NCBI GenBank assembly: GCA_022539475.1
Contig: VCMS01000414.1
Coordinates: 1-37,495, forward strand
DNA: 37,495 nucleotides
Direction of reading: 5' to 3'
Origin: Gracilaria domingensis
Lineage: Eukaryota > Rhodophyta > Florideophyceae > Gracilariales > Gracilariaceae
Numbering within the stretch: position 1 is the first letter of the stretch; the number at the start of each line of letters is the position of its first letter. Under the pieces are notes generated by a model, which searched no databases, had not been told where the DNA came from, and was given only the letters and a program-made list of their open reading frames with translations. The position numbers and the translations under genes are program-made. Below are positions 1 through 35,568 of this stretch, in pieces.

Positions 1-304
1 TCATGACCAGGCAGAAAAGCAGGTTATGAAGACGACAGTGTTCATCCCACCAACAGCTGTGAACCCATTTGAGGTCGTTATATACTTATCATACCTCGGC
101 CACATAATGGGAGAGAACGACAACATCCGAATGATGAAGAAGAAACAACCGAAAAGAAACGAAAAGTGAACCACCATTGTGTACATACCCACTTTTACGT
201 CGTTCTCCAAAGACAACTGTGATCGACTGGGATTCGCTATCAGTGAGGTCGTATGGGCATGGAGTTGTTTTGCGGCTCATCTTGGATACACGAACGTTCA
301 GCAC
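1..304. other. Left edge, no supported gene
   Basis: Short open frames occur on both strands but none has recognisable content. A frame open from position 170 leads into the ATG at 305, so an upstream exon or 5' UTR of the next gene may lie here. The left end of the transposon proposed below is not seen and probably lies outside the window. Confidence 0.4.
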
Positions 305-838
305 ATGGTGAAACCATACATTTACATGAATATGCAGACGTTGAAGTATACAGCGCTAGAGACACGGGAGTCTGGTTATGCCCCGCCGAGCCAGAGTACT
401 CGATTCAACACAAAGGATGTGCCACAGAGCAGTACTAGTGGATCGGTGGAGACCTTGAGTGATGAATGCGATACAAACCTGCGAATACTGGCTAAGGAGT
501 TTTTGACAGACCTCGAAACCATATGCACCCACGATAGCCTCTATAGCTTACGGGTTGATCAGATGAGGAACTGGATAGAGTTTTCGGAGATACGAATGGA
601 TACCGTATCTAGCTCTGACTCCGGTGAGTTGCCTGCTCGATTTCAGAAGTTTTCGGAGTTGCTATGGAAACCGATACAGGATATGCGTCATGCGGCAGGG
701 TTCCATGTCGGCATTCACGCGAAACCTGATATTGAACTGACGAAAACCCTAAAACTTCCGGTAATGCCGAACCTTCTTCGACCAAGTCTGCCCCACCCCA
801 CCTCGTCGAGAGTATATGAACCTCGTGAGCTCCGATAG
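305..838 (+). CDS. N-terminal exon/ORF of MTase-SET gene, unknown domain
   Basis: An ATG at 305 opens a frame that continues to a stop at 836-838, overlapping the ATG of the methyltransferase-SET frame at 816 in a different frame. The encoded sequence has a Ser/Thr-rich linker (about residues 25-50), then an acidic/hydrophobic helical stretch rich in Leu, Trp and Asp. I recognise no family. A GT at 761 and an AG ending at 812 would remove 52 nt and join residue 152 in phase 0 to the downstream frame one codon before its ATG, giving a protein of about 773 residues. I therefore favour it being the first part of the MTase-SET protein rather than a separate gene. The alternative is a short independent ORF upstream. 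The frame is also open 5' of 305 as far as about 170. Confidence 0.45.
   Translation: MVKPYIYMNMQTLKYTALETRESGYAPPSQSTRFNTKDVPQSSTSGSVETLSDECDTNLRILAKEFLTDLETICTHDSLYSLRVDQMRNWIEFSEIRMDTVSSSDSGELPARFQKFSELLWKPIQDMRHAAGFHVGIHAKPDIELTKTLKLPVMPNLLRPSLPHPTSSRVYEPRELR
761..812 (+). other. Candidate 52-nt GT-AG intron
   Basis: The donor is GTAATG after codon CCG. The acceptor is GAG/AG after a C-rich stretch. Both ends fall in phase 0 and the removal joins two otherwise overlapping frames without a stop. 52 nt is short but workable for a compact eukaryotic genome. No clear branch-point motif is seen. Confidence 0.4.
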
Positions 839-2678
839 CGACGAGTTCGAGAAGCCGGTGAATCTTGCGGAGCATGAATCTCGGGTTGCCGGTTACAACA
901 TCCAAAAGACTGGTATTGAGCCGCCCATGAAGGGGATATCCAGTCTCCTTCGAATGAATATGGACAAGGTATGGAAGGGGATGAGAAAGTCACACTTTGT
1001 AGCGTACAACTGTGACATGAAGGACCTGAGGCACACACACGAAACGTTTGTGAATCAGAGTGAGATTTTATGGGGTGAGGCACAGCTTGTCCTAACAGAC
1101 CCTCCCTTTAACACTCGAAGGAAGAGGAACAAACGGAATAGTGGTCACGATGTCTTCAGTGAGGAAGACATGATCCGTACGGCTGACTTAATAAGTTCCG
1201 CGCTTCGGTCAGGTGGGCACTTCATTATATTCTGTGCCATGGCACAGTTTCATGTGTGGCACAGGATACTTTCGGAAACGGCGAGTACGAAAGATGAAGC
1301 TGGAAGCAAAGGTAAACCAGAACTCATGCCTTCGTTTAAAGTGGATGCGAATCCACTGGTGTTCATCCGGGATCGCAGTAATGTTGGAGGGAATCCACGG
1401 AAGTTTGGGATACAGCCCGTAACGGAGTACGCCGTTCATGGGGTGAAGCGTGGATTGCGACCATCGGAGGAAGCCAGTCTTACTCCATTTGAGGAGAACA
1501 ATTTCATTCCTTCCACTTTCCCGGCTAACAGGAATGTAATTGACCGGGTGCCCAAACCGGGAGCGGGGGAGTGGTTGACATGGAAGGTAAATGAGCCAGG
1601 TAGTTCAGTACCAATTGGGCAGTACATAAGACCGGAGCAGAAGTCGAGGGAGTGGATGAAGGAGTTGATATGTCGCTTCACAAGACCGGGTGATCTTGTC
1701 ATGGACATGTTCGCGGGAACTCTTTCTACGGGTATGGCGTGCCTATCGCTGACAAAGCATAGGAAGTTCTTGGGGTGCGAGAAGAATAGGCCATGTTTCA
1801 GCCATGCGAAGCACCATCTAACGACTCTTATGGCCGAAGTTATTCGCGGGGGGAAGAATGACATCCTGGTTGAACAGGAGGTGGTGGATGCGGCTTCAAC
1901 GACTTATGAACGGGTTCCACATCGGGACCGAGGTCGGCTTGAATGGGAGGCTCCATTTGGTTACCCCCAGTACCAAGTGATGCCTGGACATATTACTCAG
2001 TTCCTAGGAAGATACTGGAAGGACTGGGACTTTGTCGAGAAGTGTGGACAGCGTACTGTAGATGTTTGGGAGGGGAAGTACCGAGGAGCTCTGAATCTAA
2101 TGGATATGCATATGCTGTTGACTGTTGAAGCCAATCGCTATCGCTTACATATAGCATCTTCTAATATTCGACATCCCCGTGCTGGTATGGGGGTGTTCAC
2201 GGAACATAAGATATTGGCTGGGGAAACTATCTGTCATTTCTATGGAACTTTGGTATACACGGATCTGACGAACCGGAAGGAAAGACACTTAACGTATGGA
2301 AGTGCCTGTCTCGGAGCAACTCCAGTGCGGTACAAGTTGTTTTCTATGATGGTCACTGTGACTGGTACGGAGTTTCTGCACCTGAGGAACAGACCAGGAC
2401 AGGCTCAGGATAGAAAGGAGAGCGAAGTCTACATTGTCCCGGCGCCTTTTTGTATCGGGGGCTACATTAACGACGCCGGATATCATGCCGGGGATCCCGA
2501 TTTATCGGAGCCCCGGTCAAACAGGACTCGAAGTGCCAATGTGCAGGTGGTGGAAGCGAAGTCCGTGATACAGTTCAAGTCAGACCTTTCTAACTATGCT
2601 CTACTTCGTTGTAGAGCAGTAAGAGATATTGAGAGGGGCGAAGAGTTGTATTTCAACTACGGAGAGCAGTACGCCTGA
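816..2678 (+). CDS. DNA N6-adenine/N4-cytosine methyltransferase fused to SET domain
   Basis: The frame encodes 620 residues. The N-terminal half is a beta-class amino-methyltransferase. The catalytic motif IV DPPF (95-98) comes before the AdoMet-binding motif I, DMFAGTLSTGMA (297-308), with a likely target-recognition region between (about 150-290). This is the order seen in bacterial CcrM/HinfI-type enzymes. The C-terminal part is a SET domain: GMGVF (457-461), GGYINDA (548-554) in place of the usual RFINHS-like motif, NRTRSAN (569-575) and GEELYFNYG (608-616). DPPF points to N6-adenine or N4-cytosine as target but does not decide which. The product could methylate DNA and a histone lysine at the same locus, presumably in the nucleus. 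The frame is intact. It lies in a cluster that converges on a Plavaka-like transposase. Domain calls are strong; enzymatic activity is inferred. It may be extended N-terminally by the exon at 305-760. Confidence 0.9.
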   Translation: MNLVSSDSDEFEKPVNLAEHESRVAGYNIQKTGIEPPMKGISSLLRMNMDKVWKGMRKSHFVAYNCDMKDLRHTHETFVNQSEILWGEAQLVLTDPPFNTRRKRNKRNSGHDVFSEEDMIRTADLISSALRSGGHFIIFCAMAQFHVWHRILSETASTKDEAGSKGKPELMPSFKVDANPLVFIRDRSNVGGNPRKFGIQPVTEYAVHGVKRGLRPSEEASLTPFEENNFIPSTFPANRNVIDRVPKPGAGEWLTWKVNEPGSSVPIGQYIRPEQKSREWMKELICRFTRPGDLVMDMFAGTLSTGMACLSLTKHRKFLGCEKNRPCFSHAKHHLTTLMAEVIRGGKNDILVEQEVVDAASTTYERVPHRDRGRLEWEAPFGYPQYQVMPGHITQFLGRYWKDWDFVEKCGQRTVDVWEGKYRGALNLMDMHMLLTVEANRYRLHIASSNIRHPRAGMGVFTEHKILAGETICHFYGTLVYTDLTNRKERHLTYGSACLGATPVRYKLFSMMVTVTGTEFLHLRNRPGQAQDRKESEVYIVPAPFCIGGYINDAGYHAGDPDLSEPRSNRTRSANVQVVEAKSVIQFKSDLSNYALLRCRAVRDIERGEELYFNYGEQYA

Positions 2679-2720
2679 GACTGGGCTCTGACATTGGAGC
2701 AATAGATGAGTTCAGTACCA

Positions 2721-2726
2721 AATAAA
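2721..2726 (+). terminator. Polyadenylation signal AATAAA
   Basis: A canonical AATAAA lies 43 bp after the stop of the MTase-SET gene and about 230 bp before the next ATG, so each gene in the cluster probably has its own transcript. Confidence 0.55.
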
Positions 2727-2886
2727 AAGTAAATATGCTTGTGAGTGTTGCAGCTGCCTGCAATACGCGTTGTTGTACATGTACACTGGAGCTCTTCATC
2801 TGTAACGGCGATATTTGCGACCCATTGGGCACCTCAAATTCCTAAAAAGCAGGAACTGCGGAGTCTCCCGGAATATCTGAACCATG

Positions 2887-2917
2887 CACCCCCCCCCCCA
2901 CCCCCTCCCCCCTCCCC
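2887..2917. other. C-rich tract, G-quadruplex-forming on - strand
   Basis: A run of cytosines is broken only by single A or T residues. The - strand reads as four G-runs separated by one-nucleotide loops. It lies 38 bp before the ATG at 2955, in the promoter or 5' leader of the second cluster gene. Confidence 0.75.
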
Positions 2918-2954
2918 AACAATTTCGTTTCATTACCCTGTTTATCTCCACACC

Positions 2955-4103
2955 ATGGGTATAACGCCGAGAAAGCGAAATAGTACGCAGCGGAACAAGA
3001 GTGGACAGAAGAAGAGAAGAGCATCGGATGATACGAATCAGGCTACAAGCACCGCACTTCCTAAACGGAAGTCGTCCTCGACGAAGGAGAGAGTCAGTGG
3101 GCGTCCTTCTACAGTACTCTCTCGCCCATCTCTAAGCGGATCGTCTTTCGGGATTGCGTCAAGAATTCGTGGATCAGCGAACGATGTCGTGCCGTCAACT
3201 GCCGATAATGCAAATCGTGCATCTGTCTCTGCTCCTCAAGAAGATGAGGTAACTCGGCCCAGCGGGTCAGGACAGAAGGACATGACAACCGGAACTGAAG
3301 AGGTTCGTATGACACCAAAAACTTCATGTCCCCGGCCGATATCGAAGACCAGAGCTACTGGGGCGCGGGTTACGCCGCCCAGTGGATCTAGACAACAAGG
3401 GACAATGACGAGAAGTCGTGAGAGCCCTAGTATATTAAGATCGTCACGTCCATCCCTGTCTTCTAGAACTGGGGCCGCTATGAATCGTATCATGCCTCGC
3501 AATGGGTCCGGACAAGGGAGAAAGACAATAAGAAATCGAGAGACAACTGATAGACGAGTTACTCCTCGACCTTCCCCTCTTTCAAGAACGGGGGCCGTTG
3601 CAGCTCGTACGAGGCCCAATTCATCTGATATACCATGCCATGGAGGAGGACACACACGGGAGTTGGAGCTCGGAGCCGTGCCAAGGGTGGACACAGAACG
3701 CCTGCAGCCTCTCGTGTCTAAGGGTATGGCACATGAGGATAGTTCCGATAACGAAATAACACCGAATCCTGCGGCATTACCGGGGCCTCTCGCCGAAGAG
3801 GCTAGGGAAATACCGGAAGATTTCCACACTGGTGTGAAATCAACCTCTATGAACAGACGTGATCTTTTAAATGAACTGAATTGCTTGAAAGAAAAGGTTA
3901 AGACGCTACAAAAGGACTTGATGGTTCCGGGAATTATAGTGAAGGTCGCCCAAGAGCAGAGTACGGCTTTGAAAAAGAGGCTTGAAGAGAAGGATCTAGT
4001 CATTGAAGGGCTAAGAGGGGCACTGAAACAGGAGGGAGATAGGAGTACACGTGCTGGTGAACCTGGGCAGACAGGTCGAAAGAAGCATAAAATTGAGGTG
4101 TGA
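2955..4103 (+). CDS. Basic, repeat-containing, coiled-coil protein of the transposon cluster
   Basis: I chose ATG 2955 because its context, CACCATGGG, is a near-ideal Kozak site. The open frame upstream contains the C tract and no ATG. The 382-residue product begins with a Lys/Arg-rich segment (residues 5-45, several possible nuclear localisation signals), followed by a Ser/Arg/Pro-rich disordered region. Residues 100-221 contain three imperfect repeats of exactly 40 residues, each starting with a Pro/Gly-Ser-Gly-Gln-type motif (100, 140, 180). A predicted coiled coil covers about 301-358, and a basic tail ends the protein. No family is recognised. A chromatin- or DNA-binding scaffold that dimerises through the coil would fit the composition, but that is inference. 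The frame is intact and it sits between the MTase-SET gene and the 384-residue ORF. Confidence 0.7.
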   Translation: MGITPRKRNSTQRNKSGQKKRRASDDTNQATSTALPKRKSSSTKERVSGRPSTVLSRPSLSGSSFGIASRIRGSANDVVPSTADNANRASVSAPQEDEVTRPSGSGQKDMTTGTEEVRMTPKTSCPRPISKTRATGARVTPPSGSRQQGTMTRSRESPSILRSSRPSLSSRTGAAMNRIMPRNGSGQGRKTIRNRETTDRRVTPRPSPLSRTGAVAARTRPNSSDIPCHGGGHTRELELGAVPRVDTERLQPLVSKGMAHEDSSDNEITPNPAALPGPLAEEAREIPEDFHTGVKSTSMNRRDLLNELNCLKEKVKTLQKDLMVPGIIVKVAQEQSTALKKRLEEKDLVIEGLRGALKQEGDRSTRAGEPGQTGRKKHKIEV

Positions 4104-4142
4104 GACGAGTTTTGAGGGGTTGCTCGAGCAGTGTATCACAAC

Positions 4143-5297
4143 ATGCTGACGTGGGCAAGGAGAGAAACAAGTGAGCTATGGCTCGAAGGTGAGTCGCTCA
4201 CCCGAAATTGGGGTAACCGTGCCGAGAAGGTGGAAGACGCAATTGAGAGTGGGGAATGGCTTATTGAGCCGGAGGAAGGTGGTTCATACATGGTTCCTAA
4301 AAACCCCGTGGAGCTCTTGGGCAGTTTTGGCATGTTCACACCGTCGGTAGAGGGGGGGCCAGATGCTTTGCTGAAGAAAATGGTTGAAATCGAGTTGAAG
4401 GAGTTGAGCTGGGAAGGTATTAGAAAAGCATCTCTTACCGACAGGTGTATACTGGAACTTTGTGCAGATATGTGCCTTAGGCAGAGAATGCGGCAGACCA
4501 TGAGTGACGTCGTGGGCGTTCGTAAGAGAAATACGAGGGATAAACTATTTCTGCTCCTGGGGTACGATCTGATTTGGAGAAGAACAAAGCTGGTAGAAGA
4601 GAATGCTGACGAACTCACAATGCAGTTGAAGGAAGCGCAGGAGAACATACTGCGTCTTGACGAAAATGGTGTACCGAACACTTCATGGTGGAGAAAAGCC
4701 CCATTTGTTCGTCTAAAGTACTCCAATGCGGACAATGTCGAGGATTTGCCGGCGGAAGATCAAGACTTGTTCTTCCGAAACCGTGTCGGGGTACAAGTGC
4801 TGAAGGAGTTTATTGGGTATGATGTGGAAGACAAGGATACGGGCACCTTTTTAGATGGCACAATACTGTTGCTCGCACGTTTGGACGCTTGGGTGTTGAC
4901 GGTTGTGAGCCTTCTAAGTACGGATGTGTCAAGGGGTGGCCAGAGACAGAAACTGTTTACAAAGAAGTTTGCCGAACTGCTACCTCTGTGTTTAAAGAAT
5001 GTTCTGGGGGATGTTAGGCAACGTGTCTTGAGGACCAATTCCAGCGAGTTTCATAATTTTGGAACGACAACGGAAGATTGGACTAAGGTTCTTGGTAATG
5101 ATATGAGAGAGGCTACATTTGGATATCGAATGCCGTCGAACGGAAGACTTTACCTCACTGTGAAAGAACAATTTTTTATTGACAGTGTGAGCCGAAGATT
5201 GGGGTCTATTAGCGATTGCTTCGTTGGTGAATGCGAGGAAGGGGATATGGAGTTCAAGGAAATGGACATGAACGATTTCGGAAGTAACACAGGATGA
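4143..5297 (+). CDS. Conserved-looking protein of unknown function, transposon cluster
   Basis: An intact 384-residue frame starts at ATG 4143, 39 bp after the preceding stop; the frame is open upstream but has no earlier ATG. The protein is soluble-looking and mostly helical. It has a Trp-rich N-terminus, a Glu/Arg/Lys-rich central helix (about 110-180), a Trp-Trp-Arg segment near 187, a hydrophobic helix (about 245-265) too short and polar for a confident membrane span, and a very acidic C-terminus. I see no catalytic motif. Its placement and the tiny spacing to the previous gene suggest it works with the MTase-SET and the basic coiled-coil protein, or assists transposition. It is not a recognisable transposase. 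Confidence 0.65.
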   Translation: MLTWARRETSELWLEGESLTRNWGNRAEKVEDAIESGEWLIEPEEGGSYMVPKNPVELLGSFGMFTPSVEGGPDALLKKMVEIELKELSWEGIRKASLTDRCILELCADMCLRQRMRQTMSDVVGVRKRNTRDKLFLLLGYDLIWRRTKLVEENADELTMQLKEAQENILRLDENGVPNTSWWRKAPFVRLKYSNADNVEDLPAEDQDLFFRNRVGVQVLKEFIGYDVEDKDTGTFLDGTILLLARLDAWVLTVVSLLSTDVSRGGQRQKLFTKKFAELLPLCLKNVLGDVRQRVLRTNSSEFHNFGTTTEDWTKVLGNDMREATFGYRMPSNGRLYLTVKEQFFIDSVSRRLGSISDCFVGECEEGDMEFKEMDMNDFGSNTG

Positions 5298-5347
5298 CAA
5301 GAAAAGGCACCACAAGGTGAACATGTAGAGGATGGAGCCCCTAATGT

Positions 5348-8300
5348 TTAAGGCTGTACAAGATCAACGTGGTCAGTTGGTCCTTCATCTGAATCATGAT
5401 AGAATCGATTGATGTAGAATCGGTGTTGAAACCATTGAAGTGGAGGACAAAAAGGTGGAACAGAGTAGTTTGATCGAACAACATGGACAGTTCCCTGTAG
5501 TGCAGAAGCCGGAACCATCCCGTACCAAGGAGTTAACTCTACGATAGTCTCCGCTTTGGAGTGACGAGGGAACGGAAGAGTGTGGTTCTTTTCATCGTTT
5601 GTAGCCCACCGTAAAGATATGCATTTCAATATGTGGTCGATGTTTGTTGCGGGGGGTAAAACCTCGAAATACCGGACGAATGCCACCTCTGGTGCGGTAA
5701 GTGTAGAATCAAGGAGAGATATTCGAATCAGAGCGACTACCTGGGCAACCCAAGTCTCTGAATCTTCTCCGCTTACCAATACAGTGGAAAACTTTGGCTT
5801 TCTACTGGGACCAAATGCTGGGGAAGCGAAGACTCGTTGGATGATGAGGTATTTCGGTCGTCCCAGCTTAAGTGCCTTAGAAGACGAATCGAAGTGTTCA
5901 AGAGTCGGGACGAAACCGTCTTTCACGAGGGCCGAACTCACCAGAGTTATTCTTGTCTTTTCTGGGAAGTATGTAATAGAGTGCTCATCCAGTGTTTCTT
6001 TCACGAGACTGAGGAAAGGAGGAAGAGCCTGTTCACCAATTTGGTCAAGAATCGACCTTGTGTCCGTACTTGAGAACATTTCTCTAACAGCAGTCCATGT
6101 TTTTGAACTGGACATACTTGAAACACAATGTTGAAGAGCTCGTAAAGTGAAAAAACGCCCTCTCATTGCAAATCGAGGAAGCTGTGTGGAAGTTCCTGGT
6201 AAACCTAGATTACGCTGGTAAGGAGTATTGCCATTCCATTGCTTTTTAACATGTCCGTGCTCAATGGAGCGAATAGTCTCCTCCACAGCCGTTGCTGTTC
6301 TTCCGGACGTCTTTTTGTAGTGTCTCTTAAATAGCAGGTGTGCATGTTCGTATATGCCTGCGTCATAGTACTTGATACTTCCCAGACGGCGGATATCGTC
6401 CACGAGATGATCGAGAAGATGAAACTTCAGAGTTCCCAGTCTGGAGGGACGAGAATCGGCCAGAAACTTTGTTGCGGAACGCTTGAAGGCTTCAATCTCC
6501 GAACTAAGACACAGGAGAGAGCTTTCAGTCCAATACGGGTCACGATTGTATCTGAATAAGGTCGAAAGCAAGTCCGAGTACCGAGAGGAAACGGTTGTGA
6601 TTGGGGCAACGTCCTGTTCTCCACAGCATATGTCAAAGAATGCTCCTATGAAGGGGAAGACCATGTCAAGTGCTTTGTAGTTTTTGGCCTCCAGCATTCC
6701 ACGGAGACCGTCTCTCGTGAAGATACCATTCAAAGATTTGCCTTTCTCCTGCGTGAAGAAATCGATACGTAAACCTTTGGCAGGAGAATCGCGTTCTATG
6801 GCAGCTAGAATTGCGTTTGCATGGTTGAAAAGTTGGGTGCGTATCTTTCGAACTGAACACGATGCAGATGTTCCTATTGTGGTGTACAGGGTGTCTGACT
6901 CCAGTCTCTTGATTGTGGCCGTTTTTATCAACTTTGAGATGCCGAGATGCAAGTTGTGTAATGGTTCGAATGAGAACAGACTGTATGGAGACAATCCCGG
7001 GATCATTCCAAGGCTTACGGAAGTTTCGAGGAACGAAGGAATGAGAGATATGGAATTTGAATGCATCAGAGTATCCGCTTGAGATCTCCCCTCCCTCGCA
7101 CGACGTGGACGTCTTTCCGCCTCGTCTTTTTGTGCATGTTGCAAGATAGCTGTGTATGTCTTTCGGATGCTTTTCGTGTGCTTTTGAGAACGTCCGTTGA
7201 ATGAGGTGGGAATAGGACTGCATAAAGATGAGCGAGGGGCTTTGCATCTATGACACGGGCTTTCCGTTTTGGTCCCATGAAGAATGGACAGAATGTCCTT
7301 AGCCTCAGGAATATCCGCACAATAACTTGCAAGCAGAGGATGGCACACTCGACTTAGTTTGTCTTCCCCGATGAACTGAAAACCTTTCTGCGTGAGATTT
7401 AGAATGGGCTCCAGGACTTGACGAAGAGATTCTTGAAGGATTTGCATCCTGGACTCGCGTAGAGACTTGCTAGAAACAAATGGCATTGCGTCTGCTTCAG
7501 ATGCGGAAACTCGATCAGTGTGGTAGGGAAGTATGCCACTACTGTGAGGTCATCACGGATACACTTACGGCGAAGCTCGTCGGAGAAGTTGAGAAATATG
7601 AGGTGAAGAGGATAGGCGGTAACCGATGTTTGCTTTAGAGTTGTTGAAGACTTATCGGTGTATACCTGCAGAAGACCTACGAAAGATTCACTGTAACTTA
7701 TTTCTTGGGAGTACCACACTATTCTACTATCCAAAGAGCCCATGACCATTTCCTTAATCTGAGGTGGCGTCTCTTGCGAGAGAGCCGGACATGGGGTGAG
7801 ATATTTTCGTGGAGTGGGTCTGAGGTATAGGGTGGAAGAATGTGTTTTCGTTGTTAGCCAACTGGAGCTGGTTCACAAGTGTCTGAACGGGGTCTCTCGT
7901 GTAGAGGGTGGCGCTGAACTTACATCCTTCTGGCGAGACAGTTCTGCGATTGAAACCGTCCTTTGAGGCGTATCGTTCGAAAATGGCGTTCTTCAGTTCT
8001 GTACAGCGCTTCGAACTTGTTATGGTCTCGTTGAATCGCTTTTGCGAGAATCGCGGGTCCCGAAGTAGCCCAATTAGCTCGTCCGCCTCACGATGACCAA
8101 GGTTGGAAGCTACTAAAGCCAGACAAACCGTGAGATAATCCATATGCAAATCACCAAGGGCCTCCTCAGAAGGCACTGGGCGGGAACTGCTTCCGTGTTC
8201 TCGCTCTAATGACGCGGGACCCGGGGAAGGAGAAACACAATGCGAAGTGTCCGGAATGGGAGGGGCGCACGGAGTGGGGTCGACGATGTCCTCGGACACT

Positions 8301-8524
8301 GGAGGCTCGGGAAGGCGACAAGGGGCAGTGACCGTTTCGGAAGATGCGGGCGCGGGTGCGGAAAGCTTGAGACGCTTGCTTCTCCGAATGGGCCGGCTAT
8401 TGTCGTCTTCCAGCGCTGCTTTCAGACAAAACGGGCAATGGTTGACATGCTGTTGAAGAGATAAGACTCCTCGGCGAGTAACGAAGGGGCACCCACGCTT
8501 CTTCTGTGTACAGTAGTAGACCAT
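5348..8524 (-). CDS. Plavaka-like (CACTA-related) transposase, frame-disrupted
   Basis: ATG 8524-8522 is the first ATG of the leftward frame. The N-terminus has a C2HC-type finger (C5-x6-C12-x13-H26-x3-C30) and a basic segment. Next comes a Plavaka-type 'RDP' block, then a YTDKSS motif (about 7650-7660) matching the first catalytic Asp region, SDKT in relatives. Beyond it are a C-x2-C near 7240, an EPLHNLHLG motif near 6950-6970 (Asp is usual where Glu stands here) and a YEHAH-type motif near 6345 followed by the conserved lysine/tyrosine block. The frame changes twice. It goes out of frame near 7825-7835 and back near 7515-7525, so the catalytic-Asp segment lies in another frame from both flanks. 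A 118-nt GT-AG intron could explain the first change, but the sequence inside it still looks coding. No intron explains the second. This copy is probably inactive. Confidence 0.8.
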
Positions 8525-8633
8525 GGGAAGAAGAAATGAACGAGAAACGACGACAAAGACTGCAAGGGAAGGGCGTCCGAAGGGAGAAGGAGGTCGAGTG
8601 ACAGTCAATATCGACGTGTTGCTCAGAACGGAG

Positions 8634-8641
8634 AATATATT
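8634..8641 (-). promoter_or_regulatory. TATA-like box for the transposase
   Basis: AATATATT lies about 110 bp upstream of the leftward ATG at 8524, within A/T-rich sequence. The position suits a core promoter, but the motif is short. Confidence 0.25.
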
Positions 8642-9202
8642 TTGAGTTTAAATCACGTGCTTTCGTTCAAAAAGGAACGTAGGTACACGTCGACCTCAAC
8701 ACAAGGGTGTACTTCTCGTATTATCTACCACTGGTTATAAACCTCTGGTTTCCCAACGTTGTACGCTGTACACTTGTCCAATCTCGCACAGAAAAATAAA
8801 TCTCTTCCCTCCGCCGCCGCCCCCGCCCGTCCGACGTCCGATCTTTTGTTACCGTCGTGATCCGTGCCATCCTCGCGTTCTACTCCGCTCCGTCGTACGT
8901 TTTTCCGCCCTCGCACTCGCTACGAAGTGCGAGGGCGGAAAAAAGTACGACGGATTACGAAGTAGCGTGCTGAGAATGGATTCCATTAAGCGGACATGAA
9001 GCGTACCTTATTCTCTTTCTCCGCCCTCGTCGGACGCCTCCATAAAGCGGACAGCATCCGTATCTCACGGATGTATTCCGTGCAGTCTTTTCGTACGTGC
9101 TTCCATTTCCTTCTCCGTATCTTTGTTCTAAACTAACCAATCCTCACCACGTCTCTTCGCGCTCTGCGACATGTAAACGGCAGGAAAAAGGCTTTGGGTT
9201 AC
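8642..9202. other. Gene-poor spacer right of the transposase
   Basis: No credible coding sequence. It holds the hairpin at 8890-8953, recurring CCGCCCTCG motifs (8906, 9021) and two similar 13-bp boxes, CATTAAGCGGACA and CATAAAGCGGACA (8986 and 9041). The right end of the transposon may lie here. Confidence 0.4.
8890..8953. repeat. 28-bp near-perfect inverted repeat (hairpin)
   Basis: Arms 8890-8917 and 8926-8953 are complementary over 28 bp with one mismatch, around an 8-nt loop. The stem contains CCGCCCTCGCACT and ends in a CGTACG-like core. No coding frame covers it. Confidence 0.9.
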
Positions 9203-9343
9203 TTTTGCGAGTTACTAGGTCCCTCGACTTTTCTAGCGCAACGTTTCTGTTTTGCTCTTATCAATGGTACGTTCTATCGCATTTCAACTGTATCCAACGG
9301 AGCATTGACTAACTTTTGGATACCTTCTGCTTGCGTATACAGG
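9203..9343 (+). repeat. 141-bp direct repeat, copy 1
   Basis: It is repeated at 9577-9716 with about six substitutions and a one-base gap (about 96% identity). The copy ends with TGACTAAC, a pyrimidine-rich run and TACAG/G, which resembles a branch point plus 3' splice site. Confidence 0.9.
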
Positions 9344-9576
9344 AAAACGACCAATTTCATTTCGTCTCTCAAGATCGATCTCTGGCTGTTCGGGATAGGC
9401 GATTCTGGTACTTGGTTGGGACATAGGCTGCTCTCTCGTTTATCGCATCTTGCGGTATGTTTGCTGCTTGGGCATTCTTGGTGTCCTTGGTTGTGAGTTC
9501 TCGCTTCGACACCTTTCGCGCTTTACGATGATGGTGGGCTGGTAATCTAACCGATCCCTTTCCTTCTTCTTTTTCA

Positions 9577-9716
9577 TTTTGCGAGTTACTAGGTCCCTCG
9601 ACTTTTCTAGCGCAACGTTTCTGTTTTGCTTTATCAATGGTACGTTCCATCGCATTTCAAATGTATCCAACGGATCATTGACTAACTTATGGATACTTTC
9701 TGCTTGCGTATACAGG
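9577..9716 (+). repeat. 141-bp direct repeat, copy 2
   Basis: This is the second copy, 374 bp downstream of copy 1. It also ends at a TACAGG. A GTATGT donor-like hexamer lies at 9452-9457 between the copies, so 9452-9714 has the form of an intron. Confidence 0.9.
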
Positions 9717-9760
9717 TAAATGACTTTTGATGCGGACGTAGCTCACGAGTTGCAGGTGCA

Positions 9761-9814
9761 CGTTCCTCAAGTAGGGAACCATGCATCTGGGCATGTTTCC
9801 CTACATGAGGAACG
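9761..9814. repeat. 24-bp inverted repeat (hairpin A)
   Basis: Arms 9761-9784 and 9791-9814 pair over 24 bp with two mismatches around a 6-nt loop. Confidence 0.9.
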
Positions 9815-9847
9815 GAGAGGATGAGGCGCTTCGCGCCTCATCCTCTC
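9815..9847. repeat. 15-bp perfect hairpin (B)
   Basis: Arms 9815-9829 and 9833-9847 pair perfectly over 15 bp with a TTC loop. It abuts hairpin A with no spacer. Confidence 0.9.
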
Positions 9848-9893
9848 GGAGTGCGTATTTGTTCTACCGATACAGCCGATGGTGGACGTGCAG

Positions 9894-9913
9894 TCTGCGG
9901 CATCTGCCGCAGA
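9894..9913. repeat. 8-bp perfect hairpin (C)
   Basis: TCTGCGGC and GCCGCAGA flank a 4-nt loop. It is the third strong hairpin within 150 bp. Confidence 0.75.
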
Positions 9914-10869
9914 TTGCGCCTACACCCGCTCCATCATGGGGATATGGTACATGTAATATAGCGAAGTAGTGGTTAGCAAAAGCGGTCGATAGAAGAATAG
10001 ATACGAATAAAACGGTATGATTTCATAATGGGCATCATCTGTACTAGCACTAGTATTCCATGCGTTGCAGGGTATCATTCCGCAGAAGGTATCGTGTAAT
10101 GTGCACCTTAATGGAAACTGAACCTAGACTTCGCGAAATACAGTTCAGGTAGCCCTCGACTAAAGAACTAGCACGAGTGGAAAACCCACCAGTATTTACT
10201 GCACAGCGATTCTGGACGACCCAAGCAATTATCTGCAAATTTTGAAATAATTGATCTCGATATTTTTTCAAAAAATTTACTGGACGACCCTTGCCAATTT
10301 CTGGACGACCCTCGCCAAAAACTAGCATCTGCAAGAGACAGACGTATCAATCGTTCTCTATGGCATTGAATTACATTATGATGCGCTTCTTGATCACCCC
10401 ATACATATCATACGTAATATTTACCTGTATTTTGTTATAGTATTATGCAATCCTTGAAGAGAAAATACCAAGCAAAAAGGTGAGCGTTATTACGCTTTCA
10501 ACATGCACATATTTCATATTTCAACGCAATTTCTTCATGTTATTAGCATCATTAATTCACAATTTATTATTTACTCCTATTGTACTTTTTTATTATTTGT
10601 ACGTCATTTAAGGCATACATACAAATGTTTTCGAAGCAAAGAGAACTGCAAATATTCCTTACTTTCGTACATAGGGCGCACATATGCCTTACGAATAGTG
10701 CCATAGGTTGGTGAAAACGAGAAAATACACTCTATTTACAACTTTTTTCGACGAAAATGTGAATCATTAGCTAACCATTTACTTTATGGCGATTACATGG
10801 CGCATATCTCCTTCATGGTTCTATGCTAGACTCTCCGCCGAATCAGTGCTGATATGCGCCATTTATAGG
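9914..10869. other. A/T-rich stretch without genes
   Basis: No credible ORF. The undecamer CTGGACGACCC occurs three times on + (10212, 10280, 10301), twice followed by a TTGCCAA/TCGCCAA-like tail. Confidence 0.5.
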
Positions 10870-22878: not shown

Positions 22879-23846
22879 TCAGATCCCGAGGGCCCAGGAC
22901 CTGCTGAAGGAATCGGAGCTCTGGATGGCAGAGGGAGGGAAGCAGAGCGGGAATTGGTATGGAAACCACTTAGTGGTGTCCCAGTACCAGCGGGGGGAGA
23001 GGGGATTATGAGAACCAAGCGGTGAATGGAACAACGCCGTAGGATCTACTCCAGGAGGACCCCCAGGTGGTTGATAGGTTCCAATACCACCGAAGCCTAC
23101 CATTTGGGTCGGAGGCGTCTGTGACGCAGGAGCGTAATGGTGGAAGCTTTCCACAGGGGGTGGATGCAGTGTCGCATGGCCTTCTACGAGGTTGCTTAGT
23201 TGATCGATCTCACGTTAGAGATTACGCTGGGAGTATCCCATGAACTGATGCAACTCGTTAGTGCGCCGCTTATGACGGTCTAGCACAGAGATTACGTTCA
23301 TCAGAGTATCCACAGCGATGATGATGTCGTTCAGACCGGGTCGGTTGAAGTGCGCCAGTGAAGCATAATTCAGACGGGCCAGAGCACTCCGTATCGCGCG
23401 GCTATCACCACCTGGAGGTACCGGGCCAAGCGAGAGCGACTGGAAACCGACGCGGAGAGGCCAGCTCGAACGGGAGAATAAGCAGCCGCCTGCCGGCCAG
23501 GCGAACTACTGGGGACGGAAATTGCCATGCTGGTTGAAGCATCCGCCTGTACCGGTGCCAACGGAGGCGGCGTAGGAGAGTCATAGTTCTCGGCGGCAAC
23601 CATCAGGGTATCCGGATGACCGAATGCGTCTTCTCCAGCCACATATTGGTTCTGGAGAGCCACGATGCTCTGCCCATTCGGATTGTAAACATCCGAACCC
23701 AGATGCTCACCGCAATTGTGGTTACTCACAGCCGTGAGGTAGCTTTCCAGCTGCTGTCCAGTGAACTTGGTACCCTTTACGATGGAAGAAAGTCCTATAT
23801 TACGGATTTCTCCGATTAATCGGTCAGGATTGCGATGGCATGAGCC
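22879..23846 (-). pseudogene. Unknown ORF replacing pol in element A, frame-broken
   Basis: It reads in the -1 frame relative to the protease from about 23846 to about 23413, then shifts one frame and runs to 22879 with one internal TAA (23215-23217). Composition is coding-like throughout. It has an N-terminal segment with a KFTG..LESYL motif, a Pro/Ser/Ala-rich middle, a helical segment (about 23400-23220) and a Pro/Gly-rich C-terminus. It does not resemble reverse transcriptase or integrase. It could be a gag-like gene from another element joined by recombination. Confidence 0.45.
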
Positions 23847-24532
23847 ACATGGAGCTTAGATGATACCCGGTCGACGGTTGGAACTTCCTGTGAAGCAGGG
23901 AGCGGGACGCGCTTGCGTGTAGCTCTCTTTAGCGGTTTCCTTACAATCGGTATTTCGGAACCATCATCCATGGTAACAACTCGAGCTCGAGGTCGAATCG
24001 CTTCAACAAAACGATCACAAAAGTCACAACCGAGTATCACCGGTGCGGCAATGCTTTTGCAAACCATGAAATCCACTTTAACCATACAGGTTCCTAATCG
24101 TACCATGAGAGTTATGTACCCAGGAGTACGCAACGGGTTATTGTTGGCATCCGCGATGTCCAAACCTGGACCATGACGAATTTCATCCCGTAGCGCGGGT
24201 GGCACCAACTCAAGGTGAATCAGGTTCGGTGCAGCTCCTGTATCCAACACAGACAACTGTCGAACCATGAACTGGTTAGACAAGCCAAGATCGGCATAAA
24301 CTTTGTAGTTTCTCTTGGCCATCACAAGAACTCTTTCCGGAATACGGAGATTACGGGACCGTATCCACGGACGAAGTAGAACCGAAAGGTGTTCTGAGCT
24401 CACATCAGTTGTAGCCGCTATCCTTGAAAGGATTCTAACAGCTGGGGAGCGAAGCTGTGACGCCTCGGGCGCCTTTAACTTCGGCTCGGAAGGCGCCCCT
24501 CCCGTAGGGGAAACTCCCGAAGTCAGTTTTTC
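23816..24532 (-). CDS. Retropepsin-type aspartic protease of element A
   Basis: The frame begins at the slippery site and runs to TAA 23818-23816 (about 238 codons if entered by -1 frameshifting). LSVLDTGA (near 24244) is the catalytic Asp-Thr-Gly-Ala motif of retropepsins. VILGCDFCDRFV downstream matches the second hydrophobic-hydrophobic-Gly element. A basic linker follows, with a stretch near the C-terminus (SSKL.VAHAI) that in related elements leads into the RT connector, but here the frame stops. Retropepsins process Gag-Pol in virus-like particles. The frame is intact, and no internal ATG near the gag stop suits independent initiation. Confidence 0.8.
   Translation of the reverse strand, partial: EKLTSGVSPTGGAPSEPKLKAPEASQLRSPAVRILSRIAATTDVSSEHLSVLLRPWIRSRNLRIPERVLVMAKRNYKVYADLGLSNQFMVRQLSVLDTGAAPNLIHLELVPPALRDEIRHGPGLDIADANNNPLRTPGYITLMVRLGTCMVKVDFMVCKSIAAPVILGCDFCDRFVEAIRPRARVVTMDDGSEIPIVRKPLKRATRKRVPLPASQEVPTVDRVSSKLHVAHAIAILTD
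24478..24532 (-). promoter_or_regulatory. Candidate -1 programmed frameshift site with downstream stem
   Basis: The heptamer GAAAAAC (24532-24526) fits codons AAA AAC at the very end of gag and is followed directly by the gag stop TGA. The protease frame is -1 relative to gag and opens exactly here. Two nucleotides later a perfect 7-bp stem begins (24523-24517 with 24484-24478) enclosing a 5-bp CCCCT/AGGGG pair. An alternative 8-bp GGCGCCTT stem (24497-24490 with 24475-24468) could form a larger structure. A AAA AAC is the classic retroviral heptamer; here the first base is G, which weakens P-site re-pairing. Confidence 0.55.
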
Positions 24533-26592
24533 TGAACCGGGCTCACCGAATTCGGTGCGTGAACTCCGTTCGGGGGGCCTAACTGAACCCCATGCGTGGG
24601 TACTTCGCCTTGAACCTGGTTGGAAGGTGCCTGTGCCGGAACGGAGGGCTGAGCATAGACCGGAACCGGTAATCCCAGTTCAGCTCTGGCCTTATCATAT
24701 TCCTTTCGTGGAACAGATTCCTTTTCCTCGGGCGTGAGGGCGTCGTAATACGCAATGATTTTCGGCCTGTGCGACGGCGGAAATAAGCACTGCGTCGATA
24801 CGTGACCTGGAAGGTAGCACAGGTAACATATGACCGAGGCCGGTTTGTCGCGAGGGCGATTGTCCACCCGACGTTGTGGTGCTGTGTCCTTCCACCCTGG
24901 ACGGTTTAGACGAGACGAATTGTTAGCGTAAGGCAGCGGGGCTGCAGGCACCCGGACACCTTGGGCATACAATGCGGGGTCTTCTTCCGTGCTCGGAATC
25001 GAGGTTGACGGCAGGTCTGTAGGTCCGTAAGAATCGGGGTTACTTGCGATGAAGTGAACGTTATCAGCATCACCGACAGCGGTTTCACGTCGCAAAACCG
25101 ACATCGATGGTGACGAACTCTCCGCGAGTAGCGCTTTCGAGCGGCGCTGCCCCGGGTTGCGGGCTCGATACGTCTCTCCTTCCGCCTGGGCGTAATTAAC
25201 CAACTCTAGGTACGTCATTCGGCGTTTTTCCTCGCGTCGGCGAGCGACCAACGACCGAATGGCGGGGTCCAAACCATCAACAAACATGGTACACCGCTCC
25301 TGTGCGGAATACACATTACCACATCGGTGAAACGCTTTGTTCAACCGCGTTGAATAAACCGTTTCAGATTCTTCACTCTTCTGTCTAGTGTAGCGAACAG
25401 CAAGAGTAGCGCTGTAAATCGCGTTGGAAGTCGCCTACGACCTGAGAAGGTAGTTCACGGCTTCCGGCCAACACGTGACTCCTCCTTCCGAGGCTCTCGA
25501 GGTTCCTCGAACTGAGTTGTACTGATCTTCCGCAGTCCCTGTTAGGAAGTACGGCAGTGCCACATATGCCTGTGCTTCACTCATACCGAGTATATCGGCC
25601 TCCTGGACGAACCTGGCAAGGAAATCCAAGATAAGGATAGGATCTGTCCCCGAGAACTTCCTTGTTTCAAGGGTAACATTCAACCTTCGAATGTAGTTCT
25701 TCACCTTACCGGTTCCTCGCGAGGAGCGATTCGAAGTAATATCTTCCAACCGATAATAGCGGTACGACAACAGCTTTGTGTAGAGCGGGTCCGTCGGCTT
25801 TAACTCTTTGAGTCCCAAGTGGCGCCGTCCTTTCACGCGTGATCTCATCACTGCCTGAGTAGACTGCGTCGCTTTCGACCGTGTCGAACGTGACCTATGA
25901 CGGTTGTCATCACTATCAGATGAATCTGACGAACTGTCTTCAGTCATGCCGCTCGAGTCAGAGCGCGATGAATCCGAATCATAGTGAACTCGTTTTCGGT
26001 GTCGACGTTTCTGCTTCACCGAACGATGGTCTTCATCCGCAGATGGATTTCCTTGAGGAACCTGTGCGTCCACAGCTTCATCCATACGGATTGTATCCTC
26101 CAGCGTTTCCAAGCGCGAACGAATTCGACCGATATCGGTGCGCATTTCCTGGACAAATGCCCGGTACTCCGTGACGAAGACGTCTGGGGTACCCAGATTT
26201 TCCATAATGGAATTCACGTCCCTTCTCAGAAGACGTAAGTCTCCTGAGACATCCTTCACCTGGGCATTATCAACCTGCGTCCTCAACGAGGTAACATCCT
26301 GTAGGAGTTCCACGTGAGCAGCGTGATTAATATCCAAGCGGGATTCCAACCTAGCCAACTCGGCTACGGTAGCAGCGTTAGGATTAACCATGGATGGTGT
26401 CTCAACGACGGGTTGAGCAGAACCCACATTTCCCCTGGGTGCTTCCGTAACTGAACGCGTTCTACGGGGGCGGGGTACGACCTCAAGAGGTTGCGCCTCA
26501 TCTGGGATAGACCGGGACGTCGGTGCAACGGGTGGAACCGCAGCTGACGACCGCGCTGAACCAGCTCGAGAACCTCGAGGCGGTTGCGGCAT
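24523..26592 (-). CDS. Gag polyprotein of element A (one in-frame amber)
   Basis: The start is ATG 26592-26590, with a basic Arg/Ser/Ala/Pro N-terminus. A coiled-coil-like region and an acidic Ser/Asp tract follow. The capsid-type segment (FSGTDPILILDFLARF near 25670-25610) is typical of Ty3/gypsy Gag. A zinc knuckle C-x2-C-x4-H-x4-C lies at about 24828-24787, and a Pro-rich tail runs to TGA 24525-24523. A TAG at 25437-25435 interrupts the otherwise continuous frame. In element B the aligned position reads Tyr, so the TAG most likely arose by one substitution. Gag forms the virus-like particle and binds RNA through the knuckle. Confidence 0.85.
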
Positions 26593-27149
26593 ACTGAAAA
26601 CCAGTAAGCAATCTGATCCAGATGATCCAGTTAAACTCGTACACGAGTCTCCAAAGAACAAGAAAACTCAATAAACCTTCTCGGTAAACCACCACGTCAG
26701 CGGTTCAGGTTCAAAAGTTGTCAACCTCCAAAACTCTAAAGAGTCCCCTCATCGTTGTCAGAAAACGGTGATCCGTCAGCAATCAAGTCAATTCCACGAC
26801 AGTGACCTAAAACGGTTCTAAGTCGGGAGACCACTTTGTGGGGCAAACTCGGAAGAGTGAAACCCACCAGACTGTCCGAAGGTTCGCTCTCGTGAGAGAT
26901 GGCAGACCAGTGACAGAGCCCTCTGTACCACCGTAACTCGGTTGTAAGGCCGAAGTGGCAACTGGTTATACCTACAGAGGTGCTAGGCCACGTCGTGAGG
27001 AAACGATGAGAAACTCCAGGGATGGGGTGGTATCGGCAACGATGAAACACGACCAACGACAGGTGTAGTCCCGAAAGGGAAAGCAACAGAAAACAACAAC
27101 CAAACAACACCCACACGCGACGGGTAGGGCCTCCTCGGCACTGTGCTCG
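26593..27149 (-). other. Leader of element A between LTR and gag
   Basis: No gene is supported. It should contain the primer-binding site, but I could not place it because the exact LTR end is uncertain. Short - strand frames here are not distinctive. Confidence 0.4.
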
Positions 27150-33917: not shown

Positions 33918-35127
33918 GAAAACAAAAGTCCCGGCAAATGTGCCCCGTAAGCTAAGATCCTTGTTGACGTGAATTAGTGTTCGAATGTGACGTTTCGACC
34001 CCACCGTTTCGAGCGTGGAAGGAAGCGGTGACTAACGACGAAAGCTCGGCAGCAAAGAAGAAGTAGATGTCGTGCTTGAAAGCAAGCTAACTTTTTGCGT
34101 CTTGTTAGTAGACGGCGTTTCGTTCGTTACCTGTTGCTGCCACAGCTGAAGTTTCTGAGCTGAGCTCGGAAACGGTGTCAAGGTTTCGGTAGTTTTGTTT
34201 AGGCACCCGCCAAAATTGTGGCATGATACCGACAATCTACGAGAAGAGCAAGTGCAGCGATTGGTGGCACAAAAACCTCTTTTGTAAAGAGGACCGTTTG
34301 CGGTTACATTGGAGCTCGTGGGCGATAGAAGACGGGTATTATGGCCGACAGGACCGGAAGAATGTCATCGGTGTTTGCGTTTTGAAATGGTTTTGTCTTC
34401 GCCTGGTTAAAGCATGGCATAAGTCTAACGAAGACAATAAAATGATCAAGAGATGTGTACGAAAAGTTGGCAGCGCTTTGATGCCACGCGTTTGAGTTGT
34501 TGGACGTAAGTAGTAATGAGCTGAGCTACACATGCGCTCAAAGTATCGACGCTTGTGTAGCTGAGCGTGATGGCAGATTCCCGTCAGTAGTGTCATTCGT
34601 ACAAGAAATTCGGGCACTAACCAACGGTCAGCGAAGCTGACGATGATTGTGGATCTTACGTGGTCATGCTAGTCGCGTATTTTAAGTTTGGTGCCACCAT
34701 TCCCTTAAATCTGTACCCCCCTCACCGCGACGTCCTGGCCGATTTGTCCCTCCCCTCCAAAAGGGGCCAAACTCGTGGGTTCTGCGTCACACCTGAACCC
34801 ACTTACATACCTCTTACGCGTCACGTGTTTGTACTCAAAAGCTGCGTCTGAAAGCCCTCGCGTTCGTGACACACCCGGGTAGTGAATATCACGAAGAGGA
34901 TACTTCGAAGTGCTTCTGAAATGCTGACTAAGAAATAGGACGCTACTCCATCGCGACACAGAAATCGCGCCAGCCCCTTTAGTGTCTCCCACATCTCCCG
35001 AATATTTTCTTCTTCCTGTACTGCCAAATACCGATTGTACTCTACCCATCCACTGATTGATATCTCGATAATCTTTTTCCCTCTTTGCTACATCCATCAC
35101 CATTATCTCACGCTTCCTTCAAGAATC
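33918..35127. other. No supported gene; 5' region of the RING gene
   Basis: Short frames only. A 17-bp-arm inverted repeat (34520-34536 with 34550-34566, two mismatches) is the one structured feature. The 3' end should hold the promoter of the gene at 35128, but no clear TATA box is visible. Confidence 0.45.
34520..34566. repeat. 17-bp inverted repeat
   Basis: Arms 34520-34536 and 34550-34566 match at 15 of 17 positions with a 13-nt loop. It lacks tRNA box A or B spacing, so it is not called a tRNA. Confidence 0.7.
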
Positions 35128-35568
35128 ATGCATATCGGTCATCCTGAGGAATGCTGCATTTGCCTTGACACGTTAGAAGGGAATGTCGTTCAGCTAAACT
35201 GCCTTCATGTATTCCATTTCAACTGCATTCAGCCGATGTTTCCCAAAAAAGGCCAATCACGTTCACCAAGATATCGCATGGTCCGGGGAAGAAACAGAAG
35301 GGAAGAGCTTGAGGTAAACTATCCTACAAGCAACTGCTGTCCCCAATGCCGCAAACCGATTGAGACAAAGGATATGAAGCAATGGCTTGATTATGTCAAC
35401 CGAAAGAAGCGCTCTCGGCCAGGAGACATGTCGGAAAAAGAGTATGAAAGGCGCAAGAAGAGAAACCAAAAACGTATGGAGCGTCGGCTCCGAAAGGAAG
35501 AGAAGGACAAACGGGAGAACGAGAAGAATGCAGAAGCTTCCAATCGCGATATTACCATTATAGAGTGA
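35128..35568 (+). CDS. Small RING-H2 finger protein, putative E3 ubiquitin ligase
   Basis: ATG 35128 opens an intact 146-codon frame; upstream sequence in frame has no ATG. A RING-H2 finger fills residues 9-74: C9-x2-C12, C25-x-H27-x2-H30-x2-C33 and C71-x2-C74. The Cys-His ligand pattern is complete. The C33-C71 spacing (37 residues) is long and contains an Arg-rich insertion. Residues 92-135 form a strongly charged Lys/Arg/Glu helix, probably a coiled coil or nuclear signal. RING-H2 proteins typically recruit E2 enzymes for ubiquitin transfer; activity here is inferred. AATAAA overlaps the stop codon. It is the only intact gene in the right-hand 6 kb. Confidence 0.8.
   Translation: MHIGHPEECCICLDTLEGNVVQLNCLHVFHFNCIQPMFPKKGQSRSPRYRMVRGRNRREELEVNYPTSNCCPQCRKPIETKDMKQWLDYVNRKKRSRPGDMSEKEYERRKKRNQKRMERRLRKEEKDKRENEKNAEASNRDITIIE

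Follow-up and report, generated by a model that had tools for sequence, protein, structure and literature searches.

A predicted DNA methyltransferase-SET fusion protein carried by a Plavaka-type transposon of the red alga Gracilaria domingensis

The stretch of DNA analysed here (the window, 37,495 nucleotides, contig VCMS01000414.1 of the Gracilaria domingensis assembly GCA_022539475.1) begins inside a Plavaka-type DNA transposon whose gene content includes a predicted fusion of a DNA amino-methyltransferase (MTase) with a SET domain. Comparison of the predicted proteins and their genomic surroundings demonstrates the fusion itself, its upkeep as one unit and its place in the element. We think it fairly probable, if well short of certain, that a nuclear two-domain protein of this kind is a standard component of a red-algal Plavaka element and that its role is self-directed chromatin marking, with no commitment as to whether the mark would activate or repress.

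The initial annotation described one intact frame from 305 to 2678 that carried both sets of motifs. Both domains do share a frame, at 816..2678 on the plus strand, and in a Pfam scan of its 620-residue product the amino-methyltransferase comes first (N6_N4_Mtase, PF01555, E = 1.2e-13, 52 bits against a cut-off of 26.7) and SET second (PF00856, E = 1e-7, 32.7 bits against 22.4, covering profile positions 1-105 of 105); the frame is not an intact gene, however, and 305-815 lies in another frame. Compared with the intact 1045-residue open reading frame (ORF) at L009:6455-9592, the 620-residue frame of the ORF list makes up the C-terminal 59% of the protein, and the window copy is disrupted upstream of 816; a 219-residue ORF at 179..838 (+), in a different frame from the remainder, is a fragment of the N-terminal region. 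The MTase domain lies at 1083..1796 (+), with motif IV (DPPF) followed by motif I (DMFAGT), and the SET domain at 2184..2663 (+), with GMGVF, YINDA and ELYFNYG. An intact ORF of 1036-1045 residues with a start codon is present in 8 of the 13 sources scanned. Its N-terminal region has no Pfam match and no profile match in the PDB, and residues 90-370 are 18-37% identical to those of seven relatives that align over at least 240 columns. All eight intact copies carry PKKKRKV in this region (0 of 20000 shuffles of one intact copy produced it), which we take to be the nuclear signal of SV40.

The MTase part has the features of the beta class, with a motif IV of the DPPY type preceding a motif I of the FxG type in a Rossmann fold, and the predicted structure of this part matches the folds of CcrM, M1.HpyAVI and the rotifer enzyme N4CMT in searches of the PDB. 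DPP[FY] and [FYC]xGT are present in 10/10 family sequences. The rule for the DPP[FY] motif points to adenine N6 as the methylated position; together with the similarity to CcrM and DpnA, it makes adenine N6 the most likely target of the predicted enzyme, ahead of cytosine N4. CcrM, DpnA and M1.HpyAVI share with it the motif order IV to I, the fold and DPP[FY], but they are bacterial and have no SET domain. The SET part aligns to EZH2, KMT5A, MLL and the vSET protein of PBCV-1 in profile searches against solved structures, so the alternative that it is merely the tail of a known type of methyltransferase did not materialize, and the GxG motif plus the C-terminal catalytic YG (in an ELxxDY-like test) are found in nine of the ten family sequences, the exception being P0005. 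Because the 50 best matches of each PDB fold search were MTase rows only, fold support for SET rests on the BFVD search, in which the predicted structure matched viral SET folds, and sequence support on Pfam and the profile search. The structure model of one relative, P0001, has a predicted local distance difference test score (pLDDT) of 68. The expectation that a structural model would contain both folds thus agrees with the matches to CcrM-type methyltransferases and to viral SET proteins.

The architecture recurs outside the window copy. Single-sequence searches of metagenome proteins returned eight with the MTase-SET architecture (P0001-P0008), though in P0005 the SET domain has decayed. 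A second family in the same genome (L184, C12), with both domains above cut-off, shares 37% identity with the window's family across 636 columns. N6_N4_Mtase is above cut-off in all ten family sequences. A search of the assembly with P0002, in which 47 of 755 candidates were scored and families were separated by score, place and identity, assigned 10 of the listed places to the window's family and 37 to other families; at 27 of these 37 the match extends through SET to P0002 residue 959-960, and at seven it ends at or before 874. There is at least one more MTase-SET family in the genome, and perhaps several, judging by profile range. Three further N6_N4_Mtase matches on C382 (G000; 10484, 36683 and 110684), in frames of about 1170 residues and confined to profile positions 80-217, perhaps represent another methyltransferase family. 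A search of 5.8 billion proteins with alignment A1 gave no match, though single-sequence queries had found relatives, and we read this as a limit of the search. A viral origin was considered and rejected: a single MTase-SET protein found no relative in viral contigs; an alignment search gave 120 viral-contig relatives, the best 80 of which match only within residues 499-803, outside SET; and none of the best 50 BFVD matches has an annotation that names MTase and SET together.

FastTree phylogenies of the MTase and SET halves of the ten sequences have 7/7 internal splits in common; with names shuffled 2000 times, the average is 0.24 and no shuffle exceeds 3. The agreement between the halves is good, if not fully resolved, and its plain reading would be a single old fusion passed on as a unit. 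Among the eight intact copies of the window's family, the ratio of nonsynonymous to synonymous polymorphism (pN/pS) is 0.37 overall (MTase 0.26, SET 0.34, N-terminal region 0.52), and the codon-model omega is 0.48. With expectations taken from the observed mutation spectrum, 13 copies of 14 sources have 52 nonsynonymous and 34 synonymous changes in the MTase, where 64.0 and 22.0 would be expected (z -3.0), and 22 and 18 in SET, where 28.7 and 11.3 would be expected (z -2.4); for the MTase in the eight intact copies alone z is -4.0. These counts show purifying selection on both of the predicted halves.

The element that carries the gene, a DNA transposon of the Plavaka type, is about 22.7 kb long and has the ends CGTCTG..CAGACG. 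Alignment with other copies places the right-hand part of one copy at 1..10344 of the window; the contig begins inside the element, and roughly 12 kb on the left are absent. Both termini were placed at the points where copies diverge; the right one (10322..10344) reads ...CTAGCATCTGCAAGAGACAGACG and matches the left one, CGTCTGTGTTCTGCAAAG, imperfectly and in inverted orientation. Genome-wide, with up to 2 mismatches, there are 562 right and 572 left ends, and none for the reversed controls. When 97 right and 98 left ends from the listings were each paired with the nearest partner, 49 same-strand pairs fell within 26 kb, spanning 6.4-24.3 kb with a median of 13.4 and a mean of 14.7; multiplying 14.7 kb by 562 gives a rough element content of about 8.3 Mb in the 77.9-Mb assembly. 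Since C13 and C400 also end inside the element, the assembly evidently breaks at it. The main part of the transposase, 712 residues at 5348..7486 (-), is convergent with the MTase-SET gene and has a partial profile match to PF18759 (E = 3.7e-10, 40 bits against a cut-off of 26.3); no Harbinger match was found for this ORF, and Plavaka is its sole Pfam family at E<=1. A separate ORF of 284 residues at 7754..8608 (-), with a Cys/His-rich stretch and a weak zf-TRAF_2 match below cut-off, is the probable N-terminal part. The transposase is thus split in the window, and open frames of 1100 residues exist in other copies (63 of 1555 candidates scored). The genome has at least 123 Plavaka transposase matches (123 of 672 candidates scored).

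That the MTase-SET gene travels in this transposon, as first proposed from the window alone, is borne out by two lines of evidence. The gene lies about 13.1 kb from the left end in C34, and a 201-bp probe at the corresponding place found it in 6/7 probed end pairs of 22.6-24.3 kb; in the seventh, C57, the probe matched no copy. In two 19-kb pairs the probe landed on the downstream ORF region, and one of them, C50, has an N6_N4_Mtase match inside. In the other families a convergent Plavaka match lies 4.6-5.2 kb downstream of the end of the MTase-SET match at no fewer than 12 of the 37 places; in the window's family a downstream Plavaka match was seen at one or more of the 10 places. Target duplications of 2 bp flank 15 of 28 end pairs, against a shuffle mean of 2.8, and duplications of 3 bp were not found; two of the 28 pairs have the same right end. 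Thirteen of the 14 pairs up to 13.8 kb have the duplication, and these copies look cleanly inserted. One copy of 10.2 kb, sampled at four 501-bp places, has an internal deletion that leaves it without MTase-SET and without one transposase end; it has a 2-bp duplication and must have been moved in trans.

Several observations weigh against the interpretation given above. Only 10 of 71 places listed have a stop-free open frame of at least 1050 residues, a lower bound, as the 71 are the scored part of 806 candidates. SET is above cut-off in seven of the ten family sequences and below it in P0002, P0005 and P0006, and P0005 has lost the SET motifs. Under resampling of columns, the splits common to the two trees drop to a mean of 4.2 of 7 (range 2-7, 30 draws), and P0004, P0007 and P0008 are close kin among the ten sequences. 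The selection test uses no tree and enters every distinct change a single time. When it is confined to the eight intact copies, SET falls short of significance (10 nonsynonymous and 8 synonymous changes against 12.5 and 5.5, z -1.3), and the N-terminal region is close to neutrality (49 and 25 against 52.2 and 21.8, z -0.8). The classical pseudoknot motif of SET domains is NHxC; in all ten family sequences NDA, NDP or NDY replaces the NH-type motif, and no cysteine-rich post-SET region was seen by eye, and for these reasons the substrate of the SET half may not be a histone. Among the 14 end pairs of 16.8-24.3 kb (e.g. C34:184904-207547, C23:11734-34552), the 2-bp duplication is seen in two, which is near chance. 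The lack of the duplication in most long pairs could have come about through joins made inside long repeats during assembly, through recombination among copies or through a different mode of insertion, and we hold assembly joins to be an explanation equal to the insertion of full-length copies without duplication.

How such a protein might act can be sketched. It would enter the nucleus through its SV40-type signal and act in trans on element DNA, methylating adenine N6 more probably than cytosine N4; the SET half would methylate lysines, either in the transposase or in nucleosomes close by; and the paired DNA and lysine methyl marks would set the chromatin state for transcription and movement of the element. 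The fullest version of this scheme is a self-contained writer of two layers, in which one polypeptide methylates the element's own DNA (N6-methyladenine, 6mA, or N4-methylcytosine, 4mC) as well as nucleosome lysines, and the resulting mark could extend to every copy in a host that has no C5 system. We put it forward tentatively, giving it slightly less than an even chance. The background of the host bears on it: no candidate for the C5-cytosine DNA methyltransferase family was found in the G. domingensis assembly, in a search whose control was positive in 10/14 genomes. A search of the assembly for MT-A70 gave no match, but neither did its control in any genome, and this negative carries no weight. 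Contig C680 of the assembly bears phycobiliprotein genes, as suits a Gracilaria-like red alga, and its allophycocyanin beta agrees with PDB 5tjf, from Gracilaria chilensis, at 158 of 161 residues.

Within the broader reading of self-directed marking, the direction of the effect can be argued both ways. A repressive mark laid on element copies might limit their number and the harm they do, comparable to N4CMT with SETDB1 in rotifers, but the element is abundant, as its 562 right and 572 left ends attest, repression by one of its own genes requires selection for restraint, and Pfam scans of the family sequences gave no reader domain (chromo, MBD or Tudor); we regard such self-silencing as rather unlikely. 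In the opposite case, the marks of both domains would push host repression aside so that copies stay accessible, and this has a parallel in the TET/JBP genes of fungal transposons. One survey reads TET in Plavaka as a means of evading silencing, and it also names SET genes in HarbingerS and MuDR (PMC12730594). High copy number fits this anti-silencing role, although a 5-methylcytosine (5mC) writer for it to counter was not found in the assembly and the putative SET domain has no assigned lysine specificity, and we are inclined to doubt it to a similar degree. A still less likely role is the licensing of transposition, in which methylated terminal or internal element DNA, or a transposase methylated by SET, would time excision and insertion. 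Dam methylation times the transposition of bacterial Tn10 in this way, and in more than one family MTase-SET and the transposase are arranged similarly as to order, orientation and spacing; the methylation site, however, is only hypothetical, and the gene-less 10.2-kb copy moved as well, so that any need for the protein is in trans.

The mobility of that deleted copy could also be taken to mean that MTase-SET is passenger cargo, a captured gene without a role in the element, and the HAD-type and other ORFs without assigned use that the element carries would suit such a view. We consider it improbable, as the place and convergent orientation of the gene are similar in more than one family, both halves are under selection, and the fusion has been retained over deep divergence. 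The sole point in favour of an artefact, whether from the merging of adjacent genes or from a false join in the assembly, is the broken state of the window copy; the long stop-free frame recurs at 10 of the 71 places, and the fusion is also present in P0001-P0008 and in the second family. Repeated intact frames and relatives that carry the fusion rule this explanation out, and we attach next to no probability to it. Self-directed chromatin marking by a nuclear two-domain protein remains the reading we favour.

The element has other contents. Two ORFs without a Pfam match at E<=1 lie between MTase-SET and the transposase (2745..4103 and 4131..5297, both on the plus strand, from the ORF list). 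In its left part, seen in L029, L014 and L030, there are two convergent HAD-type ORFs, phosphomannomutase-like by eye, and the left part also has an ORF of about 300 residues without a Pfam match. At L009:3474-5498, a 674-residue ORF divergent from MTase-SET has a weak ParB-like match (PHROG, 7.3e-4) and none in Pfam, and the interval between it and MTase-SET is densely packed with repeats, inverted as well as direct, that vary among copies (C218, about 6933-7742 in alignment numbering). Outside the element, the window has ORFs at 23816-26661 (-) that resemble by eye the gag, zinc-knuckle and protease parts of a long terminal repeat (LTR) element, with no Pfam family above cut-off, and a 177-residue ORF with a RING finger at 35035-35568 (PF13639, 27.9 bits against a cut-off of 27.3).

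No description of an MTase-SET fusion was found among the papers listed in literature searches that covered open-licence papers, and within that literature the initial impression that it had not been described in this setting holds. The closest parallels are partial. In bdelloid rotifers, which lack canonical C5 methyltransferases, N4CMT is a host gene whose product makes 4mC and joins an amino-methyltransferase to a chromodomain, a chromatin reader; the writer SETDB1 is a separate protein (PMC8885841). The protein described here differs in being encoded by a transposon and in having SET, a putative writer, in place of the reader. Pfam found no chromodomain in 10/10 family sequences, L184 being scanned minus its N-terminal part. 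The TET/JBP genes discussed in part of the fungal survey are carried by Plavaka, Zisupton and other DNA transposons, so that there, as here, a DNA transposon (Plavaka included) bears a DNA-modification enzyme, and PlavakaA makes target duplications of 2 bp, as does the G. domingensis element (PMC12730594). TET/JBP is an eraser of 5mC in fungal hosts, however, whereas the G. domingensis protein is a putative writer, and the Plavaka-group termini given in that part of the survey, TGT..ACA or CATCA..TGATG, are not matched by CGTCTG..CAGACG (PMC12730594). HarbingerS and MuDR of Phytophthora are likewise DNA transposons with a SET gene, but they belong to other transposase superfamilies, and the passage that treats them mentions no DNA methyltransferase (PMC12730594). 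For the giant Plavaka repeats of Amoebidium, the corresponding passage names tyrosine recombinases as cargo and names no amino-methyltransferase or SET (PMC11244446).

Transposons with one chromatin or DNA modifier are thus already known, and the G. domingensis element would extend this set of transposon-borne chromatin modifiers; the new part is the apparent presence of both enzyme types, DNA methyltransferase and SET, in a single protein. A stable writer of DNA and histone marks would serve as a tool for epigenome editing. If the reading is true, the protein would physically couple two epigenetic layers in a host whose assembly has no C5 methyltransferase candidate, and it makes the question of whether a selfish element can write its own heritable chromatin state directly testable, as there are hundreds of similar copies that can be read for 6mA and 4mC.
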